From positions 1 to 45,396 of the forward strand of contig DASRES010000014.1 of NCBI GenBank assembly GCA_035651955.1: 45,396 nt of DNA, given 5' to 3'. Below are positions 30,824 to 42,055 of this stretch, piece after piece. Every line of letters starts with the position of its first letter. The first letter of the stretch is position 1. Under the pieces are notes generated by a model. That model worked only from the letters and a program-made list of their open reading frames with translations, did not search any database and was not told the DNA's origin. The position numbers were made by a program, and so were the translations under genes. The DNA is from Acidimicrobiia bacterium (GTDB lineage: Bacteria; Actinomycetota; Acidimicrobiia; IMCC26256; JAMXLJ01).

Positions 30824-33196
30824 TCAGTCGAGGATCAGCTCGGGGATCGTGAACGTCACGGCGTCGTGGATGTCGGCGCTCGACAGGCCGAGCAGCAGCG
30901 TCACCTCGCCGGCCTCGACGCCGCGACGGCCGTCGGGCCACGTGTACGCCAGCCGTTGCAACGGGACCGAGAGGTCGACCGCCTCGGCGCCGCCGCTCGC
31001 GAGCGCCAGGCGTGTGAAGTCGACGAGCTGACGGACCGGTCGTACAACAGTGCCGGCCTCGTCACGCGCGTAGAGCTGGACGACCGCGGTCCCGGCGTGC
31101 TCGCCGGTGTTGCGCACGAGTGCCCGCACGCGGAGCACCTCGTCCACGAACGTTGCGTCGTCGAGCTCGAGCCCGAACGACGTGTACGTCAGGCCGTGGC
31201 CGAACGGGTACAGCGGTGAGCTGTCGGCCAGGTCGACGTAGCCGTACCGGGGCAGCGTCGGGTGCTCGTACCCGCTGCCGACCGGGAACCCGTGGTACAT
31301 CGGCACCTGGCCGACGTGGCGCGGGAACGTCGACGGCAGGCGGCCGCCGGGCTCGATGCGGCCGAAGAGCACGTCCGCGACGACCTCGCCGGCGAGCGCG
31401 CCCAGCAACGGCGCGAGCAGCACGGCGGACGACGCGTCATGGACCGCGCCGAGCAGCAGCGGCCGGCCCGACACCACCACGGTCACGACGCGCGTCCCCG
31501 CGCGGTGCAACGCGGTGACGAGCGCGTCCTGGTTCCCGGGCAGTACGGGGTTCGCGACCGTGCGACCCTCGCCCGCGGTGTGGTTGCCGACCCAGCCGGT
31601 GCGCTCGCCGACGACGGCGATCACCACGTCGGCGTCCTCGGTCGCGGTCAGCAGGGCGGCCTGGTCGAGGTCCGCGTCGTCGAAGCTCCCGACCGGGTGG
31701 TACGTCGCGCCCGGATCGACGGCGCGGATCGCGTCGACGACCGTCGTCGCGTCGGGGTTGAGCGCGCGGGCGCCGGCCTCGAACACCGGCTCGATCCCCG
31801 CCAGCCGCGTCTGGAACAGATCCGGGAACACGTCGTCGGCGGCGCGTGCTCTTGCAACCCGACCGCTCGTGATGCGTGCGACCGCGATCGGGATCTCGGT
31901 GTCGGCGACCGACGAGTACGCGCCGAAGTGGATGCGCAGCTCGTCCGCGGCCGGGCCGACGATCGCGAGCTTCGCGACGCCGGGCGCGAGCGGCAGGATC
32001 CCGTCATTGGCAAGGAGCGTGACGGCTGACTCGGCGACGACGCGTGCGAGCGCGCGTGCGTCAGCGCCGTCGATCGCCGACGGCGCCCGCGGCGCGCGGC
32101 CGGATCGAATGTCCGGCACCAGTCCGAGGCGCGCCTTGATCGCGAGCACGTTGGCGACGGCGCGGTCGAGGATCTCCTCCGAGAGCGTCCCGTCTTCGAC
32201 GAGCGGACGGAGTTGGCTGGTGGTGTCCGCGCTCGGCAGCTCGACGTCGATGCCCGCGGTCAGCGCGTCCGCGGCGGCGCGTCCTGGAGTCGCGGCCGTC
32301 CGGTAGTCGCGGTACAGCATCGTGACCGCGCCGTAGTCGCTGACGACGAGCCCGTCGAAACCGAGCTCACCCCGCAACAGCTCCGTGAGCAACCAGTGAT
32401 TGGCGCTCGCCGGGATGCCGTCGATCTCGTTGTATGAGCTCATCACCACGGACAGACCGGCGTCGGCGATGGCGCGCCGGAACGGTTCGGCGTGGACGTC
32501 GGTGAGCTCGCGGCGACCGAGCTGGGTCGCGGCCTGGTTCAGCCCGCCGAGCGAGTGCGCGTAGGCGAGGAAGTGCTTCCCGGTCGCGAGCATTTCGGAG
32601 TCGCCGGCGTCGCCCTGCACACCGCGGATGAACCCGATGCCCATGCGCGCGACGAGCTCGGGATCCTCGCCGTACGTCTCGTGCACGCGGCCCCAGCGCA
32701 TGTCGCGCGCCACGTCGAGTAGGGGCGAGAAGAGGAGGTGGATGCCGACCGACCGCGCCTGGCGCGCCGCGATCTCGCCGACGCGCCGCGACGACTCCGG
32801 GTCCCAGCTCGCCGCCTGCCCCCACGCGGTCGCGAACTGATCGCCCTGCGCGTGGACGAGCCCGTTGATCCCTTCGGCGTGGACGAGCGTCGCGATGCCG
32901 AACGGATTGACGTCGCGCGCGATCTCCTGGAACCGGGCGAGCTCGTCGCGGAGGCGGTTCAGGTCCGAGTCGAGCTGCCACCCGAGCGACAGGTGGCCGA
33001 CGCCGTGCGGCCGTACCGACGGGAGGCGCTCGAGCTCGTACGGGAACCCCTTCGAGAGGTCGGGCGCGCCGCGGCCCGGATCCGCGAACTTCGAGAAGTC
33101 CACGAGATCCATCGGCACGACACCTTGGATCTGTCCGATCTTCTGGTCGAGGTCGAGGCGCGAGACGAGCGCGCGGATCTCGTCGGTGTCCGGCAC
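30824..33196 (-). CDS. GH3 beta-glycosidase (second copy)
   Basis: A 790-residue GH3 enzyme with the same layout as the copy at 12967 but clearly divergent. Marks: DMRWGRVHETYGEDPEL, GKHFLAYAHSLGG, the nucleophile D287 in LVVSDYGAV, and a C-terminal fibronectin-III-like domain with LVRNTGEHAGTAVVQLY. No signal peptide. The GTG start overlaps the stop of the binding-lipoprotein gene by one base (TAGTG), so the long upstream extension of the frame is not used. Tight coupling to a transporter binding protein indicates hydrolysis of an imported glycoside in the cytoplasm. Confidence 0.92.
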   Translation of the reverse strand: MPDTDEIRALVSRLDLDQKIGQIQGVVPMDLVDFSKFADPGRGAPDLSKGFPYELERLPSVRPHGVGHLSLGWQLDSDLNRLRDELARFQEIARDVNPFGIATLVHAEGINGLVHAQGDQFATAWGQAASWDPESSRRVGEIAARQARSVGIHLLFSPLLDVARDMRWGRVHETYGEDPELVARMGIGFIRGVQGDAGDSEMLATGKHFLAYAHSLGGLNQAATQLGRRELTDVHAEPFRRAIADAGLSVVMSSYNEIDGIPASANHWLLTELLRGELGFDGLVVSDYGAVTMLYRDYRTAATPGRAAADALTAGIDVELPSADTTSQLRPLVEDGTLSEEILDRAVANVLAIKARLGLVPDIRSGRAPRAPSAIDGADARALARVVAESAVTLLANDGILPLAPGVAKLAIVGPAADELRIHFGAYSSVADTEIPIAVARITSGRVARARAADDVFPDLFQTRLAGIEPVFEAGARALNPDATTVVDAIRAVDPGATYHPVGSFDDADLDQAALLTATEDADVVIAVVGERTGWVGNHTAGEGRTVANPVLPGNQDALVTALHRAGTRVVTVVVSGRPLLLGAVHDASSAVLLAPLLGALAGEVVADVLFGRIEPGGRLPSTFPRHVGQVPMYHGFPVGSGYEHPTLPRYGYVDLADSSPLYPFGHGLTYTSFGLELDDATFVDEVLRVRALVRNTGEHAGTAVVQLYARDEAGTVVRPVRQLVDFTRLALASGGAEAVDLSVPLQRLAYTWPDGRRGVEAGEVTLLLGLSSADIHDAVTFTIPELILD

Positions 33197-34518
33197 TACT
33201 TCAGCGTGATGGGCGAGCCGATCGCGATGAGCTGGTCCTTGCCGGATCCCTGCTTCCAGGTCGGGTCGATCCTGAAGAGCTGGAACTGGTCCTGCCCGTC
33301 GAACTTGTTCGGCCCGAACGAGCTCTTCGGCGCGGCCGGGAGGTCCACCGCGCCGAGGGACTCGACGCCCTTTGCGAACGTCTCGTTGTTGAGGTCCTTG
33401 CCCGCGGCCTTGGCGGCGTCGACGAAGAGCGTCAACGACGTGCACGCCTCCTCCATCGCGACGAACCCGCTCGACTTGCCCGAGAGGTCCTCCTGGTCAG
33501 GGTTCACGATCTCGTTGCCGGTCGCCTGCTTCCACACCTGCCGGCAGTGCGCGAACGCGGGGTCGTCGAAGTTGTAGTTCTGGTTGGGGACGCCGGTGCC
33601 AGCGACGATCGGGAACTTCCCGAGCGGGTTCGTGTACGCGGCGGCCTGTAGGTTCCCGACGACGGGAGAGAAGATGCGCGGGTGGTAGCCGGCCGCGTCG
33701 AAGTCCGCGCCGGGCGTGAACTGGCCGACGTCGATCACCGTGTCGACGCCTTTGCTCTGGAACCGCTGGGCGATCACCTTGTCCTGCGCGGTGGCCGCCT
33801 GCAGGTCCGTGTCCGGCGCGTCCATGAGCGCGGTGTCGGCGACCTTGTAGCCCGCGTCCTTCAACGTCTTGACGGCGAGGTCGATCTGCGCCTTGTACGG
33901 CGCCTGCGCGGCGTAGACGGCGATCGTGTGGCCCTTCAGGTCGCCGTTCTGGTCGAGCAGCTTCACGAGCGCGTCGATCGACCGCTCGTCGCTCGCGTTC
34001 CAGGTCGCCCACGGCGCCCGCGCCTGCGCGAGGAGTCCCTTGTTGAAGTTGCCACCGACGAGGATCGTCTGGTGCTGCTGCACGACGCAGAGGTTGTTGA
34101 CGTTCAGGAACCCGACGAGCACCGCGAAGACCTTGTCGTCCTCAGTGAGCTTCGTGCACGCCGCGAGCTGGTCGGTGTTGCCGATCGGCGAGTACTTGGC
34201 GATGAACAGCTGGAGCTTGCGGCCGTTGACGCCGCCGCGCGCGTTCACGTCGTTCACGAGCGCGGTGATGATCTGCTCCTCGGGCCCGTGGTCGAGCCGG
34301 ATCACGCCGGACTTCGCGAGCGCCACGAGGTCGATGTACGAGAAGCCGATCTTGATCGTGTCAGCGGTGACGCCCTGACCGAGCGCCTGGCTGCCCGTGG
34401 CGGTTCCGGCCGAGTTCGCGGTGGTGCTCGACGAGCTCTTGCCTCGCGAGGTCGTGCACGCTCCCGCGAGCACCGCGAGCACCGCGAAGACGACGGTCCA
34501 CGACTTCACGCGCGGCAT
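33196..34518 (-). CDS. Liv-type ABC substrate-binding lipoprotein
   Basis: A 440-residue periplasmic-binding-protein type I of the branched-chain amino acid group (Peripla_BP_6). The N-terminus MPRVKSWTVVFAVLAVLAGA followed by C21 is a lipoprotein signal; a Ser/Thr-rich linker follows. Core segments: TIKIGFSYIDLVALAKSG, LVNDVNARGGVNGRKLQLF, GHTIAVYAAQAPYKAQIDLA. Actinobacterial relatives bind amides, aromatic compounds or other small organics as well as amino acids. Position as first gene of an operon with GH3 and GH1 suggests it captures a glycoside. The matching permeases and ATPases are probably the fusion proteins at 36981-42055. Ribosome site GGGGGGAG precedes the ATG. Confidence 0.87.
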   Translation of the reverse strand: MPRVKSWTVVFAVLAVLAGACTTSRGKSSSSTTANSAGTATGSQALGQGVTADTIKIGFSYIDLVALAKSGVIRLDHGPEEQIITALVNDVNARGGVNGRKLQLFIAKYSPIGNTDQLAACTKLTEDDKVFAVLVGFLNVNNLCVVQQHQTILVGGNFNKGLLAQARAPWATWNASDERSIDALVKLLDQNGDLKGHTIAVYAAQAPYKAQIDLAVKTLKDAGYKVADTALMDAPDTDLQAATAQDKVIAQRFQSKGVDTVIDVGQFTPGADFDAAGYHPRIFSPVVGNLQAAAYTNPLGKFPIVAGTGVPNQNYNFDDPAFAHCRQVWKQATGNEIVNPDQEDLSGKSSGFVAMEEACTSLTLFVDAAKAAGKDLNNETFAKGVESLGAVDLPAAPKSSFGPNKFDGQDQFQLFRIDPTWKQGSGKDQLIAIGSPITLK

Positions 34519-34544
34519 GGCTCCCCCCAGCCTCGGCACCGTTG

Positions 34545-34574
34545 ATAACGGTGTTATACCCGTAACGGCGTTAT
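34545..34574. promoter_or_regulatory. Twin palindromes between divergent glycosidase operons
   Basis: ATAACGGTGTTAT (34545-34557) and GTAACGGCGTTAT (34562-34574) are two adjacent near-identical palindromes with centres 17 bp apart, each with TAAC and GTTA arms. They lie in the 113-bp gap between the binding-lipoprotein operon and the second GH1 gene, so a repressor bound here could control both. The half-site resembles that of composite element B (TAACG), but the spacing inside the palindrome differs by one base. No regulator gene is adjacent. Confidence 0.6.
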
Positions 34575-34631
34575 GGTAGCGACTGCGCAACGTCTCTGCT
34601 GCGCGGTCGCCGAGACGCGACGGAGGATTCG

Positions 34632-35807
34632 ATGACGCGTGCTTTCCCGAGCTCGTTCGAGTGGGGGACCGCGACTGCGGCACACCAGATCGAGGGCCAG
34701 AACTGGAACAACGACTGGTGGGAGTGGGAGCACCGTCCGGGCTCGGGCGTGGCCGAGCCGAGCGGCGACGCGTGTGACTCGTGGGACCGTTGGCGCGAGG
34801 ACGTCGCGCTCGTGCGCGAGCTCGGGCTGAACACGTATCGCTTCTCGATCGAGTGGAGCCGGATCGAGCCGGAGGAGGGGGAGTGGTCGCACGCGGCGAT
34901 CGACCACTACCGCCGCATCGGTGAGGCGCTCCGCGAGGACGGGATCCAGCCGGTGGTCACGTTCCACCACTTCACGTCGCCACGCTGGTTCGCGGCGCGC
35001 GGCGGCTGGACGGCGCCCGACGCTCCGGACGTGTTCGCCCGGTTCTGCGAGCGTGCCGCCCGCGAGCTCGCGCCCGTCCTCGGACGGGTGTGCACGATCA
35101 ACGAGCCCGGGGTGGTCGCGATCATGGGCTGCCTGATGGGCGTGTTCCCGCCCGGCGTGTCCGACGAGGACGCGCACCGGCGCGCGACGACGACGCTGTG
35201 CGCCGCGCACCGCAAGGCGGTCGACGCGATTCGCGCCGCGGCACCCGGCGTCCCGGCCGGGTTGACCGTCTCGATGACGGACTACCAGCCGCTCGAAGGG
35301 GGCGAGACGAAGCTCGACGAGATCCGGGCGCTGCTCGAGGACGTCTTCCTCGACGCGACCGGCGGCGACGACTTCGTCGGCGTCCAGAGCTACTCACGGG
35401 CGCGCATCGGACCGGACGGATGGGTCGGGCCCGAACCCGGTGTTCCCGTGCTGCCGCTCGGTTACGAGTACTACCCGCAGGCGCTCGCGGCGACGATCCG
35501 TCGGGCCTGGGAGTACACGGAGCGCGCGGTCCCCGTCCTCGTCACCGAGAACGGGATCGGCACGGACGACGACGCGCAGCGGATCGACTACCTGAAGGTC
35601 GCGCTCGCCGGGGTCGCGGACTGTCTCGACGAGGGCATCGACGTCCGCGGCTACACGTACTGGAGCCTGCTCGACAACTTCGAGTGGACGTTCGGCTACG
35701 GGCCGAAGTTCGGCTTGGTCGAGGTCGACCGGACGACGTTCGCCCGGCGCTCGAAGCCGTCGGCGAAGTTCTTCGCCGACGTCGTCAGGCGCAACGCGCT
35801 TCCATGA
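34632..35807 (+). CDS. GH1 beta-glucosidase (second copy)
   Basis: A 391-residue GH1 enzyme with FEWGTATAAHQIEG at the N-terminus, acid/base E158 in TINEPG and nucleophile E306 in VTENG, and WSLLDNFEW near the end. It shares length and reduced loops with the first copy at 29635 and is clearly its paralogue, but the asparagine after NEP is replaced by glycine and many pocket residues differ, so the aglycone or sugar preference may differ. GGAGG precedes the ATG. It is divergent from the transporter-glycosidase operon across the twin palindromes, implying joint regulation. Confidence 0.93.
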   Translation: MTRAFPSSFEWGTATAAHQIEGQNWNNDWWEWEHRPGSGVAEPSGDACDSWDRWREDVALVRELGLNTYRFSIEWSRIEPEEGEWSHAAIDHYRRIGEALREDGIQPVVTFHHFTSPRWFAARGGWTAPDAPDVFARFCERAARELAPVLGRVCTINEPGVVAIMGCLMGVFPPGVSDEDAHRRATTTLCAAHRKAVDAIRAAAPGVPAGLTVSMTDYQPLEGGETKLDEIRALLEDVFLDATGGDDFVGVQSYSRARIGPDGWVGPEPGVPVLPLGYEYYPQALAATIRRAWEYTERAVPVLVTENGIGTDDDAQRIDYLKVALAGVADCLDEGIDVRGYTYWSLLDNFEWTFGYGPKFGLVEVDRTTFARRSKPSAKFFADVVRRNALP

Positions 35808-35860: not shown

Positions 35861-36820
35861 TCAGCGTGTAGGGCCGTTCAGCGTCGCGTACTGCCACCAA
35901 CCACGGAGCGGGAACCCCAGCCGTGCCGACTCCTGCAGGACCGCCCGCTGCTGCGAGGTGAGGCCGGCGAAGGGGTCGCCGCTCCCGCCGGGCTCGGTCG
36001 CGTCGTCGATCTGCGGCAGCTTGTCGTGCAGCACCCGGAGGGCGAGCAGCTGCACGGTCATGAAGCTCGGGATGGCGTTGGGGACGCCGAACACCATCGG
36101 CACGAAGCCGTCCCAGATGCCCGACGTGCTCTCCGCAGCGCCGACCGTCTGGTACGCGCTACCACTCGCGCCGAACAGGTAGCCGCGCGGGCGCGCGATG
36201 TCGCCGTACACCTTCGCGGCGACGACGCGCGAGTACTTGGCGGTCGCGGCGTTGACGCGATAGCCGCCGAGCGTCGGGCTGTTCTGGACGCCGCCGGCGT
36301 TGTTGCTCACGACCATGGACGCGCCGTGCGAGAGCACGAACGCGAGGGTGCTGGGACCGCCACCGATCGAGGGCGGGTTCTGGAGCGTGTCCTCGTTCCC
36401 GAGCGTCGGGTACGTGGGCTCGAAGAACCGCCCGCGGTACTGCGCCTTCGGCGGGAAGTAGAAGGAGAACCGGGCGTTCGTCCCCGCGAACCCGCCGTGG
36501 ACGTAGCGGTAGGTCACGGTCACGTGTGTCGCGGGGTCCGTCGTCGTCCGCTGCTCGTCGACGTCGGTGTAGGGCTGGGTCAGCGCCGGGTCCTGACAGC
36601 CCGGTGTGACGAACAGGACGCCGTTCGACCCTTGCTGGCACGTCGGCTGCGGCGCGCTCGTGACGCCCGTCGCGACGCCGGTGCAGCCGGCCGCCGTCAC
36701 GACGACGCCGACCGCGCCCGCCACCACCGCGCACCTCGATCGGTTCCGAGAATGGCCCGCATCGTCACCCCCGTTCGTGGGCGATCCCGCGCCGCGCGGT
36801 TGGTCACCCGATTCCGTCAT
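35861..36820 (-). CDS. Exported tannase/feruloyl-esterase-like protein, C-terminally short
   Basis: An alpha/beta-hydrolase-like exported protein of up to 319 residues. A hydrophobic stretch with a possible lipobox (VVVTAAGC) follows a charged N-terminus; the start is unsure. FYFPPKAQYRGRFFEPTYPT, VLSHGASMVVSNNAGG and GYLFGASGSAYQTVGA (a GxSxG-like GASGS) match large secreted tannase-like esterases. Relatives I recall run to about 500-600 residues, but this frame stops just after GWWQYATLNGPTR. In the next frame the text continues as YTLIQNLGRVRVVVH before a stop near 35825, hinting at a frameshift and a lost C-terminal half. It may be a pseudogene. Confidence 0.5.
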   Translation of the reverse strand: MTESGDQPRGAGSPTNGGDDAGHSRNRSRCAVVAGAVGVVVTAAGCTGVATGVTSAPQPTCQQGSNGVLFVTPGCQDPALTQPYTDVDEQRTTTDPATHVTVTYRYVHGGFAGTNARFSFYFPPKAQYRGRFFEPTYPTLGNEDTLQNPPSIGGGPSTLAFVLSHGASMVVSNNAGGVQNSPTLGGYRVNAATAKYSRVVAAKVYGDIARPRGYLFGASGSAYQTVGAAESTSGIWDGFVPMVFGVPNAIPSFMTVQLLALRVLHDKLPQIDDATEPGGSGDPFAGLTSQQRAVLQESARLGFPLRGWWQYATLNGPTR

Positions 36821-36980: not shown

Positions 36981-39191
36981 ATGACCGCGGTGCCCGAGGA
37001 CGAGGCCGCGAGCGCGGCGACCCTGACGCAGGCGGTGCTGGACGAGGAGGCGGAGCGTCTCGCGCGGCAGGCCGCGGCCGACGAGGTCGAGGTGCTCGAC
37101 GACGAGCAGCTCCCCGGCGTCGGTGACCAGGCGATGTCGTTGCGGGAAGGCGTGGGCATCGGTGGCGTGACGCTGCTCGCCGTCTTCTCGGCGCTCGCGG
37201 CGGTGGACCAGCTCGACAACGGGGTCGGCGGCGTGCTCGCCCCGGACATCCGCAAGACCCTTCACATGAGCAACGGGGTGATCGCCGTCACGACCGTGGC
37301 GGGCAGCGTGTTCGCGATCGTCGGGGGTCTCGTGCTCGGACGTCTCGCCGACAACACCCGGCGGACGACCATCGTCGGGATCGCGACACTCGCGTGGGGC
37401 ACGGTCTCACTGTTCACCGCGACGGTCGTGAACGCGCTCTTGTACTTCTGCACGCGCGCTTTGACGGGTTTCGGCCGTTCGAACACCTACGTGGTGCAGG
37501 GTCCGGTGCTCGCCGACGCCTATCCGATCGCGGCGCGTGGCCGCGTCTACGCGGTGCAGAGCATGACGGGAACGTTCGGCGGTCTCGTGCTGCCGCTCGC
37601 GGTCGGCGGCCTGGTCACGCTCCTCGGCGGTGGTGACGCCTGGCGGTGGGGCTTCGTGTTCCTCGGCGTGCCGGTCGTCGTGCTCGGAGTGCTCGCGCTG
37701 TTCCAGAAGGACCCGCCGCGTGGCCAGTTCGAGCAGAAGGCGACGATCGGGCAGGTGATCGAGGAGCGCGACGCGCCGCCGATCTCGCTGGGCGCCGCGT
37801 ACCAGCGGATCGCGCAGATCAAGACGTTCAAGAACGCGATGACGGCGTTCACCGCGTTGGGGTTCAGCTTCGTCGCGGTCCCGGTGTTCGTGAGCCTGTA
37901 CCTCGACGAGCACTTCCACGTGAACGCGTTCGGCCGTTCATTGATCGCGATGATCCCGGGGCTGCTGGGACTGCTCCTGGTGCCGCTGGCGGCGCGCCAC
38001 TTCGACGGGTTGTACCGCAAGAGCCCGCCGCTGACGTTGGTGTTCATCGGCGCGCTGTTCGTACCGGCCGGCGTGCTCGTGCTCCTCCAGATGTTGATGC
38101 CCAACATCTGGCTGTTCGCAGTGTTCGCGACGCTGTCGGGCGCGATCCTGCCGATCGAGCTCGCGATGCTCGGTCCGCTGTTCGCGAACGTCAGCCCGTA
38201 CTACCTGCGCGCGCAGGGCGCCGCGATCGGCATGGCGATGGTTCTCGGGATCGGCGGTTTCGGTGGCGCGTTGCTGGGCGGACTGATCTCGGACTCGTTC
38301 GGCCTGCGCGCCGCGGTCATCGCGGTCGCCCTGCCGGCGAACCTCATCGGCGGGCTGTTGCTGATGAACAGCGCGCGGTTCCTGCGCAACGACCTCTCGC
38401 TGATCGTCGAGGAGATCCACGAGCTCGAGGCGGAGCAACGCCGGCTGCGGGACAACCCGGGTGACGTCCCGGTGCTGCAGATGCGCAACATCGACTTCGC
38501 GTACGGCCCCGTGCAGGTGCTGTTCGACGTGAACCTGGACGTGCGGCGCGGCGAGACGCTCGCATTGCTGGGCACGAACGGCGCGGGCAAGTCGACGGTG
38601 CTGCGGGTGATCAGCGGGCTCGGCATCCCCGCGCGCGGCGTCGTTCGTCTCAACGGCCAGAGCGTGACGCTGTCGTCGCCCGAGACGCGCGTGCGCTGGG
38701 GGATCCATCAGCTGCCGGGCGGCAAGGCGATCTTCGACCCGATGTCGGTGCGGGAGAACCTCGAGATGGCCGGGTTCATGTACCGCAGCAACGGCAGCGA
38801 GCGGCGCGGCCGGATGGAGCGCGCGCTGTCGATCTTTCCCGAGCTGCGCGACCGGTTGGACGACGAGGCAGGCCGGCTGTCGGGCGGGCAGCAGCAGATG
38901 CTCGGCCTCGCGATGGCGTTGATGCACGACCCGGAGATCTTGCTGATCGACGAGCTGTCGCTGGGGCTCGCGCCGGTGATGGTCGAGAACCTCTTGGGTG
39001 TCGTCGACCGGCTGAAGCAGGCAGGGCAGACGATGATCATCGTGGAGCAGTCGTTGAACGTCGCGCTTGCGATCGCGGACCGCGCGGTGTTCATGGAGAA
39101 GGGTCGCATCCAGTTCGAGGGCCGCGCGGCGGATCTTCTGGAGCGTGACGACCTGGTGCGCGCGGTCTTTCTCGGCAGCGAGCAGGCATAG
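36981..39191 (+). CDS. MFS permease fused to LivF-type ABC ATPase
   Basis: A 736-residue two-domain protein. Residues 1-52 are an acidic, Ala/Glu-rich cytoplasmic tail. Residues about 55-475 are a major-facilitator permease with the loop motif GRLADNTRRT and many membrane segments (GVTLLAVFSALAAV; VITVAGSVFAIVGGLV style; GLLGLLLVPLAA). Residues about 495-736 are a complete LivF-like ATPase: Walker A GTNGAGKST near 530-538, signature LSGGQQQ near 633, Walker B ILLIDELS near 652, and a late switch region IIVEQS. No frameshift joins them; the reading frame is continuous through a helical linker (ELEAEQRRLRDNPGD). GGGGGGAG precedes the ATG. It is followed 2 bp later by the LivHMG fusion. Function: probably import energised by ATP, with the MFS half of unknown role. 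Confidence 0.85.
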   Translation: MTAVPEDEAASAATLTQAVLDEEAERLARQAAADEVEVLDDEQLPGVGDQAMSLREGVGIGGVTLLAVFSALAAVDQLDNGVGGVLAPDIRKTLHMSNGVIAVTTVAGSVFAIVGGLVLGRLADNTRRTTIVGIATLAWGTVSLFTATVVNALLYFCTRALTGFGRSNTYVVQGPVLADAYPIAARGRVYAVQSMTGTFGGLVLPLAVGGLVTLLGGGDAWRWGFVFLGVPVVVLGVLALFQKDPPRGQFEQKATIGQVIEERDAPPISLGAAYQRIAQIKTFKNAMTAFTALGFSFVAVPVFVSLYLDEHFHVNAFGRSLIAMIPGLLGLLLVPLAARHFDGLYRKSPPLTLVFIGALFVPAGVLVLLQMLMPNIWLFAVFATLSGAILPIELAMLGPLFANVSPYYLRAQGAAIGMAMVLGIGGFGGALLGGLISDSFGLRAAVIAVALPANLIGGLLLMNSARFLRNDLSLIVEEIHELEAEQRRLRDNPGDVPVLQMRNIDFAYGPVQVLFDVNLDVRRGETLALLGTNGAGKSTVLRVISGLGIPARGVVRLNGQSVTLSSPETRVRWGIHQLPGGKAIFDPMSVRENLEMAGFMYRSNGSERRGRMERALSIFPELRDRLDDEAGRLSGGQQQMLGLAMALMHDPEILLIDELSLGLAPVMVENLLGVVDRLKQAGQTMIIVEQSLNVALAIADRAVFMEKGRIQFEGRAADLLERDDLVRAVFLGSEQA

Positions 39192-39193
39192 CC

Positions 39194-42055
39194 ATGGCGT
39201 CAGCGCTCGCGCTCACGATCACCCGCCAGACCGTCTACGGCGGGTTCGTCGACGGCCTGTCGATCGGTCTGCTCGCGCTGGGCATCGTGTTGATCTACCG
39301 CTCGAGCCGGGTGATCAACTTCGCGGTCGGGGCGATGGGCGCGCTGTCGGCCGCGCTGCTCGCGCTGCTGGTCGTGAAGTACCACTGGAACTACTGGCCC
39401 GCGGTGCTCGTCGCGCTGGTCGCGGGTGGGGCGTTCGCGGCGGCGTGCGAGGTCACCGTCATCACTCGACTGTTCCGGGCGCCGCGCGTCATCGTCCTCG
39501 TCGCGACGATCGGCATCGCGCAGCTCGCGCTCGCCGCGCAGACGGCGTTGCCGCACATGGACGCGAGCATCGACACGCCGTACCCGAGCGCGGTGCTCGG
39601 GACGTGGCACGTCCTCGGCTTGCGCGTCCGGGGTCAGGAGCTGTCGGTGCTCGTTGCGGTCCCGGTGATCACACTGCTGCTCACGTGGTTCCTGACCCGC
39701 ACGGACGTCGGCAAGGCGGTCCGCGCGGCAGCCGCGAACCCGGAACGGGCGCGCCTGTCCGCGATCAACCCGAAGATCCTCTCGACGCTGGTGTGGACGA
39801 TCGGCGGGGCCGTGTCGGCGGTGTCGATCATCCTGCTCGCCGGGACCTCCGGGAGCGTGACGGGCCTGACGACGATCGGGCCGAACACGTTGAGCCGCGT
39901 GCTGGCGGCGGCGTTGATCGCCCGGATGGTGTCGTTCCCGCGGGCACTCGCCGCCGGTGTCGCGATCGGGATCCTCGAAGCGGTCATCAAGTACAACGCG
40001 CCGACCCAGGCCGGCCTGACCGACGGTCTGTTGTTCGTCGTGGTGGTCGTCGTCACGTGGCTGATCGCCCGGCGGGAGAGCGCGGACGACGACGCGTCGT
40101 TCTCGTTCGCGCCGCGGGTGAAGCCGATCCCGGAGCGGCTGCGCGAGATCTGGTGGGTGCGCCAGTTGCCGCGGCTCCTCGGCGTGGTCGCGTTGGTCGC
40201 CGCGATCGCGTTGCCGTTCATCGTCACGGCGCCGTCGCGGCACTTCCTGTACGCGCGGATGCTCCTGTTGGCGATCGTCGCGCTGTCGCTCGTCGTGCTG
40301 ACCGGCTGGGGAGGGCAGGTGTCGCTCGGGCAGGCCGCGTTCGCCGGGCTCGGCGCGCTCGGCTACGCCGCGCTCGTGAACGGCCACTCGCTCGGCCTCG
40401 GGTACGGCACCCACCGTCTCGAGGTCAACTTCCCGACCGTCTCGCCGATCGTGGCTCTCCTCGTCGTGACCGCGGTGGGAGCGCTCGTCGCGACGTTGAT
40501 CGGCGCGGGAGCGTTACGCGTCCGGGGTCTGCTCCTCGCGGTCGTCACCTACGTGTTCGCGCTCGCCGCGCAGCAGTACATGTTCCAGCGACCGTTCCTC
40601 TCCGGCGGCAGCAGCGGGTCGGTGTTCGTGCAGCGGCCGATCGTGGGAGGTCTCGACCTCGCGTCCCAGCGCAACTTCTACTTCGTCGCGCTCGTCGCGC
40701 TCGTGATCTGCATGCTGCTCGTCGCGCGGTTGCGGCGTTCGGGTGTCGGCCGCTCGATGATCGGCGTGCGCGACAACGCGCACTCCGCGGCGGCGTACAC
40801 GGTGTCACCCGCACGCGAGAAGCTGCAGGCGTTCGCGCTCGCCGGCGGCATGGCCGCGTTCGGCGGCGCGCTTCTCGGCGCGCTGCTGTCGACGATCAGC
40901 ATCAACGAGGTGTTCACCGTCGGCGACTCGCTGCAGGCGGTGTCGATCGCGGTGATCGGCGGCGTCGGCTCGGTCGCGGGGCCGATCCTCGGGTCGCTGT
41001 GGGTCGTGGGCCTGCCCGCGTTCTGGCCGTCGAGCACGTTGGTACCGCTCCTGACGAGCAGCATCGGCCTGCTGCTGCTGTTGATGTACTTCCCGGGCGG
41101 GCTCGTGCAGATCGGCTACTCGGTGCGCGACGCGCTGTTCGCGTGGCTGGATCGGCGCCTGCCCGAGACCGTCGTGGCACCGAAGTCCACGGAGATGCCG
41201 CGCGCACGCGTCGCACGGCCCGCCGACGTCGTCCTTCCCGCGGACGTGATGCGCACCGACGGGGTGTCGGTCCACTTCGGCGGGCGGGTCGCGGTCGACG
41301 ACGTCAGCGTCAGCGTCGGCGCGCGGGAGGTCGTCGGCCTCATCGGCACGAACGGTGCGGGCAAGACCACGCTGATGAACGCGATCGGTGGGTTCGTGCC
41401 GTCGACGGGCCGCGTCGAGCTCCTCGGCCACGACGTCACCCGGCTCACACCAGCGCGGCGCGCCCGCCGCGGGCTCGGTCGCACGTTCCAGGCCGCGCGC
41501 CTGTTTCCCGACCTGACCGTGCGCGAGACCGTGCAGGTCGCACTCGAAGCCCGTCACCGCACCCGCTTCAGCACGACCGCCCTCTTCCTGCCCGCGGGAT
41601 ACAAGACCGACCGCGCGCAGCGCGCGGAGGCGGAGGAGATCATCCACTTCCTCGGTCTGGGCCGCTACGCCGACCGCTTCATCGCGGAGCTCTCCACCGG
41701 TACGCGCCGCATCGTCGAGCTCGCCGCGCTCCTCGCGCTCGACGCGCGCGTGCTGTGCCTCGACGAGCCGACCGCCGGTGTCGCGCAACGCGAGACCGAG
41801 GCGTTCGGGCCGCTGCTGCTCCGGATCCGCGACGAGCTCGACGCGTCGCTGCTCGTCATCGAGCACGACATGCCCTTCATCATGGGCATCACCGACCGCG
41901 TCTACTGCCTCGAGACCGGTCAGGTGATCGCGGAGGGAACACCGGCCGAGCTGCGCGAGAACGCGGCCGTCATCGCGTCGTACCTGGGCACCGACAAGCG
42001 CGCCATCCAACGCAGCGGGACCGCCGACGTCGCCAGCGTGACCGGCAGCGCCTGA
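39194..42055 (+). CDS. LivH-LivM-LivG triple-fusion ABC transporter
   Basis: A 953-residue protein containing both permeases and one ATPase of a branched-chain-amino-acid-type importer. Residues about 1-295 match LivH (VDGLSIGLLALGIVLIYRSS; INFAVGAMGALSAALLALL). Residues about 340-635 match LivM (LTGWGGQVSLGQAAFAGLGA; the loop RDNAHSAAAYTVSP). Residues about 690-940 are LivG, with Walker A GTNGAGKTT near 717, signature LSTGTRR near 833 (a variant of LSGGQ) and Walker B VLCLDEPTAG near 852. Together with the LivF domain of the preceding gene (2 bp upstream) this would be a full transporter lacking only a binding protein, which the lipoprotein at 33196 may supply. Substrate unknown; not necessarily an amino acid. 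Confidence 0.9.
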   Translation: MASALALTITRQTVYGGFVDGLSIGLLALGIVLIYRSSRVINFAVGAMGALSAALLALLVVKYHWNYWPAVLVALVAGGAFAAACEVTVITRLFRAPRVIVLVATIGIAQLALAAQTALPHMDASIDTPYPSAVLGTWHVLGLRVRGQELSVLVAVPVITLLLTWFLTRTDVGKAVRAAAANPERARLSAINPKILSTLVWTIGGAVSAVSIILLAGTSGSVTGLTTIGPNTLSRVLAAALIARMVSFPRALAAGVAIGILEAVIKYNAPTQAGLTDGLLFVVVVVVTWLIARRESADDDASFSFAPRVKPIPERLREIWWVRQLPRLLGVVALVAAIALPFIVTAPSRHFLYARMLLLAIVALSLVVLTGWGGQVSLGQAAFAGLGALGYAALVNGHSLGLGYGTHRLEVNFPTVSPIVALLVVTAVGALVATLIGAGALRVRGLLLAVVTYVFALAAQQYMFQRPFLSGGSSGSVFVQRPIVGGLDLASQRNFYFVALVALVICMLLVARLRRSGVGRSMIGVRDNAHSAAAYTVSPAREKLQAFALAGGMAAFGGALLGALLSTISINEVFTVGDSLQAVSIAVIGGVGSVAGPILGSLWVVGLPAFWPSSTLVPLLTSSIGLLLLLMYFPGGLVQIGYSVRDALFAWLDRRLPETVVAPKSTEMPRARVARPADVVLPADVMRTDGVSVHFGGRVAVDDVSVSVGAREVVGLIGTNGAGKTTLMNAIGGFVPSTGRVELLGHDVTRLTPARRARRGLGRTFQAARLFPDLTVRETVQVALEARHRTRFSTTALFLPAGYKTDRAQRAEAEEIIHFLGLGRYADRFIAELSTGTRRIVELAALLALDARVLCLDEPTAGVAQRETEAFGPLLLRIRDELDASLLVIEHDMPFIMGITDRVYCLETGQVIAEGTPAELRENAAVIASYLGTDKRAIQRSGTADVASVTGSA

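Follow-up and report, generated by a model that had tools for sequence, protein, structure and literature searches.

An MFS carrier fused to the LivF ATPase of a Liv-type importer in Acidimicrobiia: an apparently unreported architecture that may combine two energy modes

Described relatives and composition of the locus

Primary (ATP-driven) and secondary (gradient-driven) transporters are held as separate mechanistic classes. In this study, we analyzed a stretch of 45,396 nucleotides from an Acidimicrobiia bacterium (assembly GCA_035651955.1, contig DASRES010000014.1; hereafter the window), in which a carrier of the major facilitator superfamily (MFS) and the ATPase subunit LivF of an ABC importer share one reading frame. 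On the ABC side, the closest described systems are the Liv/HAAT importers, including UrtABCDE, which have the same two permease domains, two ATPases, and Peripla_BP_6 binding protein, whereas here (i) an entire MFS carrier sits at the N terminus of LivF, (ii) LivH, LivM, and LivG are one chain, and (iii) neither ATPase domain reaches the LivF, LivG, or Urt cut-offs. Fused Liv subunits lacking an MFS part also occur in the window’s genome (L054, L055, and L057). On the carrier side, a structure search with a profile of 22 fused MFS halves placed nearest the solved structures 6e8j (E = 1.1e-38), which we take to be HnSpns, DgoT of the anion:cation symporters (E = 4.9e-26), and human SPNS1 (E = 4.6e-23).

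MFS carriers extended at the C terminus are known: PMC10710835 describes CBS, cyclic-nucleotide-binding, PAS, and UspA domains, some of them ATP binding. Those fusions share with ours an added C-terminal domain, but theirs is regulatory, whereas the one found here serves as catalytic subunit in a second transporter. A table in PMC3924187 also lists a family of sensor kinase-MFS fusions. The architecture reported here appears undescribed and may be one transporter combining two energy modes. Our searches of a library of open-access papers yielded no description of an MFS-ABC fusion; the survey by Willson et al. (2019) of bacterial MFS carriers with fused C-terminal domains, which is cited in PMC10710835, may list it. 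Sequence-based names of MFS-LivF transporters describe one half only. A recurrent, paralogously expanded union of this kind lets the coupling of two mechanisms within one complex be tested, as well as the gain from fixing carrier and importer one to one.

The coordinates, 2-bp gap, and domain content that a first-pass annotation had read from the letters of the window were all reproduced by reading frames and Pfam (Table 1). Its two-gene inventory stood but left out the binding-protein gene, the paralogous sets C1 and C23 that this genome also has, and a second gene layout. The ATG of the fusion gene is preceded by a GGGGGAG run, its frame closes with TAG at 39189-39191, and the ATG of the LivHMG gene follows after the gap. 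Within the fusion chain, MFS_1 covers residues 74 to 368 with 107.5 bits against a cut-off of 33.4, which places the chain in the MFS, and ABC_tran covers residues 515 to 658; residues 1 to 60 gave no Pfam match. The top NCBIfam names for the ATPase half, UrtE (180.9 bits; cut-off, 285.8) and LivF (169.3 bits; cut-off, 441), both fall below their cut-offs, as does LivG, the best NCBIfam model for the last third of the 953-amino-acid chain, relative to its curated cut-off. As in Liv/HAAT importers, this second chain carries two BPD_transp_2 domains, with LivH and LivM assigned using the sequence of the window’s own parts; ABC_tran is present in both chains, and BCA_ABC_TP_C is above its cut-off in the LivG part. 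The Peripla_BP_6 gene upstream on the opposite strand completes the set and, from its location, is the probable binding-protein gene of this importer. Between it and the fusion gene lies a gene for a 319-amino-acid protein with a hydrophobic N-terminal stretch (35861-36820, minus strand), for which no Pfam or NCBIfam match was found at E = 0.001.

TABLE 1 Coordinates of the MFS-LivF locus and of related genes in other stretches
Feature	Stretch	Position	Strand	Remarks
MFS-LivF fusion gene	Window	36981..39191	+	736 aa, ATG to TAG
MFS carrier half	Window	37161..38390	+	Residues 61-470; MFS_1 E 8.6e-31
Linker	Window	38391..38468	+	Residues 471-496; Asp471 is the first residue
LivF ATPase half	Window	38469..39191	+	Residues 497-736; ABC_tran E 8.2e-27; 1ji0 TM-score 0.90
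LivH-LivM-LivG chain	Window	39194..42055	+	953 aa; BPD_transp_2 E 2.1e-47 (2 stretches), ABC_tran E 4e-29, BCA_ABC_TP_C E 1.7e-9
Solute-binding protein	Window	33196..34683	-	Peripla_BP_6 E 1.1e-13; 495 aa counted from listed GTG; probable partner
Decayed-MFS chain	L181	6805-9111		LivF intact
Decayed-MFS chain	L180	6578-8995		LivF intact
Decayed-MFS chain	L096	6940-9141		LivF intact
Decayed-MFS chain	L105	6512-8710		LivF intact
560-615-aa protein gene	L051	10804-12498		Second layout
560-615-aa protein gene	L053	8991-10667		Second layout
560-615-aa protein gene	L097	3913-5604		Second layout
560-615-aa protein gene	L101	4306-6150		Second layout
560-615-aa protein gene	L103	9906-11675		Second layout
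560-615-aa protein gene	L126	4177-5901		Second layout
560-615-aa protein gene	L132	4287-5987		Second layout

AlphaFold models were weak for the whole fusion chain (mean pLDDT of 60, with much of the MFS half below 50) and for the MFS half alone (mean pLDDT of 55). A Foldseek search with the whole chain returned good matches for the ATPase half only, which resembles 1ji0, a Thermotoga maritima ABC ATPase (the TM-score in Table 1 is by target). A helix predicted at residues 442 to 491 (block pLDDT of 66 to 86) extends TM12 through the linker; it gives the sole structural sign that the two halves could be mechanically coupled.

Gating and charge residues of the carrier half

Residues 41, 42, 122, and 129 of 6e8j fit the numbering of the HnSpns paper (PMC9440201). 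The profile alignment places window residue D79 at HnSpns D41 and DgoT D46, N80 at R42 and R47, D124-R128-D179 at the HnSpns relay Asp87-Arg91-Asp142, and R159 at HnSpns Arg122. In TM4, window R166 falls at HnSpns Glu129, presented there as the protonation master switch (PMC9440201), and at DgoT Glu133; mutations D46N and E133Q each abolish active transport by DgoT (PMC6532931). The window’s carrier therefore shares the Asp41, Arg122, and relay positions with HnSpns and the Asp46 position with DgoT, but arginine replaces the TM4 glutamate of both, so that it lacks the proton switch of Spns carriers and the Asp46/Glu133 pair of DgoT; its score against TIGR00893, the D-galactonate transporter model, is 70.9 bits, against a cut-off of 395.

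These positions were counted in 89 distinct fused sequences, unthinned, of which 67 carry LivF alone and 22 carry LivF-LivG. Motif A residues Asp124 and Arg128 are both kept in 82, as in the window (Asp124 is missing in 7), the relay residue Asp179 in 88, and R159 in 71. In TM1, at least one of the acids at positions 76 and 79 is present in 85 sequences and both in 66. Unlike in HnSpns and DgoT, an acid at the TM4 proton-switch position is rare: 3 of the 89 have one, and the other 86 have lysine, glutamine, arginine, or another residue, which makes ordinary proton coupling unlikely. Since only 1 of 10 unfused relatives has the acid, its loss is not tied to the fusion. R319 is invariant in the fused set (89/89) and found in 1 of 10 unfused relatives, and D471, the first linker residue, occurs in 89/89 and 8/10, respectively. 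The inferred topology would put R319 on the outer side of the membrane at the end of TM8, from which it could contact the binding protein or LivH/LivM. Four fused sequences have lost both TM1 acids (L096, L105, L167, and L181), L181 lacking TM1 in the alignment. Chains with a decayed MFS half and an intact LivF (Table 1) could serve as natural tests of the carrier’s role.

A pair of positions picked after viewing the alignment, and hence exploratory, links TM1 to TM4: an acid at position 77 and a lysine or arginine at position 166 occur together in 38 sequences and are both absent in 34, leaving 17 discordant (72 of 89 concordant). Across 10 independent tree pairs that differ at position 77, position 166 shifts the same way in a mean of 5.5 and never the opposite way (median P = 0.03). 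In a like-for-like comparison with 201 other positions, each coded by majority residue, position 166 ranks first, narrowly (4.45, with position 309 at 4.11). This covariation speaks for a continuing interaction of TM1 with TM4 in most members. The window protein itself, with Gln77 and Arg166, departs from the pattern but does have Asp76 and Asp79.

Possible roles of the tethered carrier

We favor, with about even confidence, a complete ABC importer to which a carrier with its own altered coupling is tethered, ahead of a regulatory role for the MFS half and then of ATP gating. The ABC core needs nothing from the MFS half to be complete, and relatives manage without one, so the carrier is an addition and not a replacement. 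A complete Liv-type importer made of binding protein, LivH, LivM, LivF, and LivG has gained an MFS carrier covalently at the N terminus of LivF. The ABC core would import a solute delivered by the binding protein, and the TM12 helix running on into LivF would seat the carrier beside LivH/LivM, one per complex. The carrier itself would still work by alternating access, on that organic solute or a related one, with a charge switch between TM1 and TM4 that differs from that of Spns and DgoT. With stoichiometry and place set by the tether, the complex could use both ATP and an ion gradient or exchange; alternatively, the carrier may move a product as the substrate enters through the ABC part. The complete ABC core in the window and the gating residues kept in most members favor the tethered-carrier reading and fit the hybrid with two permeation paths proposed in the first-pass annotation, and they suggest that the carrier probably still works with an altered charge network. 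The TM1/TM4 covariation, the inheritance of the halves as a unit, and the fact that the nearest solved structures, HnSpns and DgoT, belong to proton-coupled carriers also favor it. Against it stand the rarity of the TM4 acid (3 of 89), the 4 of 89 sequences with neither TM1 acid, the 7 without Asp124, the window’s departure from the 77/166 pattern, the faster divergence of the MFS half, and the weak structure models.

A less probable but still serious alternative is that the MFS half does not transport but acts as a membrane sensor, regulator, or anchor, gating the LivF ATPase or recruiting the binding protein, much as transporter-like receptors do. The first-pass annotation had offered a sensor or anchor as its second guess, and the non-acidic TM4 position in 86 of 89 sequences agrees with it, as do the four carriers without TM1 acids, which still keep LivF and the LivH-LivM-LivG chain. 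Arg319 and Asp471 are also conserved as docking sites would be. However, most members keep motif A and the TM1 acids, the TM1/TM4 covariation would be unexpected for an inert anchor, and close relatives (L087 to L091) have the same ABC core and no MFS half.

That LivF drives the MFS half, with ATP hydrolysis relayed through the helix from TM12 into the linker so that the carrier would be ATP powered or ATP gated, seems improbable to us. In the layouts seen, the carrier has the ATPase subunit as its fusion partner and never LivH or LivM; the canonical proton switch is gone, and the predicted 442-491 helix would offer a path for the relay. Yet LivF keeps its usual partners LivG, LivH, and LivM, and the TM4 glutamate is missing in unfused relatives too. 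The powering of ArsB by ArsA is a loose precedent for an ATP-driven carrier, and to our knowledge an ATP-coupled MFS carrier has no described counterpart. If LivF did drive or gate the MFS half, one ATPase pair would power two different permeation modules in one complex.

Spread, layouts, and origin of the fusion

The first-pass annotation supposed that similar fusions may exist in other actinobacteria, and our surveys support this. A scan of contigs from one genome per species, which reaches close relatives only because it used exact peptide patterns of the query, returned 20 loci, comprising 13 full-length fusions, with titles naming Acidimicrobiia, Acidimicrobiales, Actinomycetes, Actinomycetota, or marine group Sva0996 MAGs, and 7 matches within the ATPase half only. 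Of the 296 genomes in the sample of the class, which these titles suggest is Acidimicrobiia, 82 gave matches at E ≤ 1e-70; with G142, G194, and G209 dropped, since their rows span the ATPase part alone, MFS-LivF was counted in 79 (the rows of G127 and G290 span only part of the MFS half). Copy numbers in this sample are lower bounds, because scoring was limited to the top three candidates in each genome. A sample of 396 genomes from the phylum, Actinomycetota, gave matches in 19; of these, 6 lie outside the class, and all 6 span both halves. In one small class of the phylum all 3 genomes carry the fusion, in 6, 2, and 7 places. Paralogous expansion is strong in G329 (7 MFS-LivF places in ∼3.3 Mb) and G301 (6 in ∼2.6 Mb). 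Among the matches listed for plasmid records, at least one place covers ≥80% of the query; it belongs to Embleya sp. NBC_00888 (identity of 47.6% over 94%) and has the gene order MFS-LivF, LivHMG, binding protein. The window’s genome has three fusion copies (in C14, which is the window, C1, and C23). The nearest relative of the window’s copy in the class sample is 66% identical to it, and the fusions of the one congeneric genome examined are only 45% and 37% identical, which speaks against wide conservation of this particular copy.

The fusion was said at the outset to stand or fall with two possibilities, an assembly error or separate halves in close relatives. Full-length matches in many other assemblies exclude chance and assembly error, and we found no relatives in which MFS and LivF are separate neighboring genes. 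An error or frameshift merging two neighboring genes has a negligible probability and is refuted for the family. In its favor, the window comes from a draft genome of 92 contigs, the one congener examined lacks a close counterpart, and G033:C48, the sole apparent split, has its halves in two frames. Against it, that break is a run of 10 N, a single frame covers both halves in the 79 class genomes, including the single-contig assemblies G003, G004, G110, and G190, and the Embleya frame is continuous. A separate LivF translated from a conserved internal start was likewise rejected, as Met501 of the window is valine or leucine in the other 13 aligned sequences.

Layouts were compared for 56 MFS-LivF entries in long stretches, which amount to 55 places because L039 and L092 are one contig. 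LivH-LivM lies in the same stretch at 52 of them; the 3 without it are second copies truncated where the stretch ends. In 29 places MFS-LivF stands beside a one-chain LivH-LivM-LivG (first layout) and in 18 a LivH-LivM chain stands beside MFS-LivF-LivG (second layout), the rest being variants or cut; the window’s genome has both (C14 and C1, first; C23, second). A recognized binding-protein gene is near 43 of the 55 places. At 7 of 8 gene-called second-layout loci, a downstream gene encodes a protein of ∼560 to 615 amino acids with an N-terminal hydrophobic stretch (Table 1); given this stretch and a Peripla_BP_6 score in 2 of 5 tested, it is likely a membrane-anchored binding protein. Neighboring genes gave no consistent substrate hint: the window has sugar-type genes at 12970-45245 (GH3, xylose-isomerase-like, two GH1, GHMP kinase, and GalT-like) and its closest relative has acyl-CoA ligase, thiolase, and epoxide hydrolase genes.

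Relatives with only one half bear on the origin of the union. In five genomes, a Liv system has a LivF closely resembling the fused ones but no MFS part, namely, G114 (L087), G194 (L088), G218 (L089), G284 (L090), and G209 (L091); G114, G218, and G284 carry fused copies besides. Unfused MFS relatives comprise 10 full-length proteins in 5 genomes of a 40-genome sample, a fragmentary eleventh (L165) being excluded. No LivH or LivM was found in their stretches, L150 lying at a contig end with its upstream side unseen, and L172 has a distantly LivF-like ATPase ∼3.6 kb away. In quick trees, MFS presence requires 3 changes on the LivF tree and 2 on the MFS tree. Holding the fused rows together gave log-likelihoods higher by 9.3 for LivF (p-AU = 0.70; 77 versus 9 rows) and by 6.3 for MFS (p-AU = 0.68; 70 versus 10 rows, thinned at 85% identity), so a single fusion event is compatible with the trees of both halves. 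Pairwise identities of the two halves correlate at 0.89 across 77 proteins; this, together with the one-clade trees not being rejected, indicates that they are inherited as a unit. Mean identity is 32% for the MFS half and 57% for LivF, the MFS half thus diverging faster. The Walker B form DELSLGLAP was considered as a marker of the fusion and rejected, as it also occurs in unfused LivFs, and a DEL form in two paralogs of the same genome (L004 and L005). Finally, an unfused MFS protein of 506 amino acids at a contig end (L170, 8529-10046) lies nearest the fused ones in the MFS tree and is a possible sister of the carrier that preceded the fusion.
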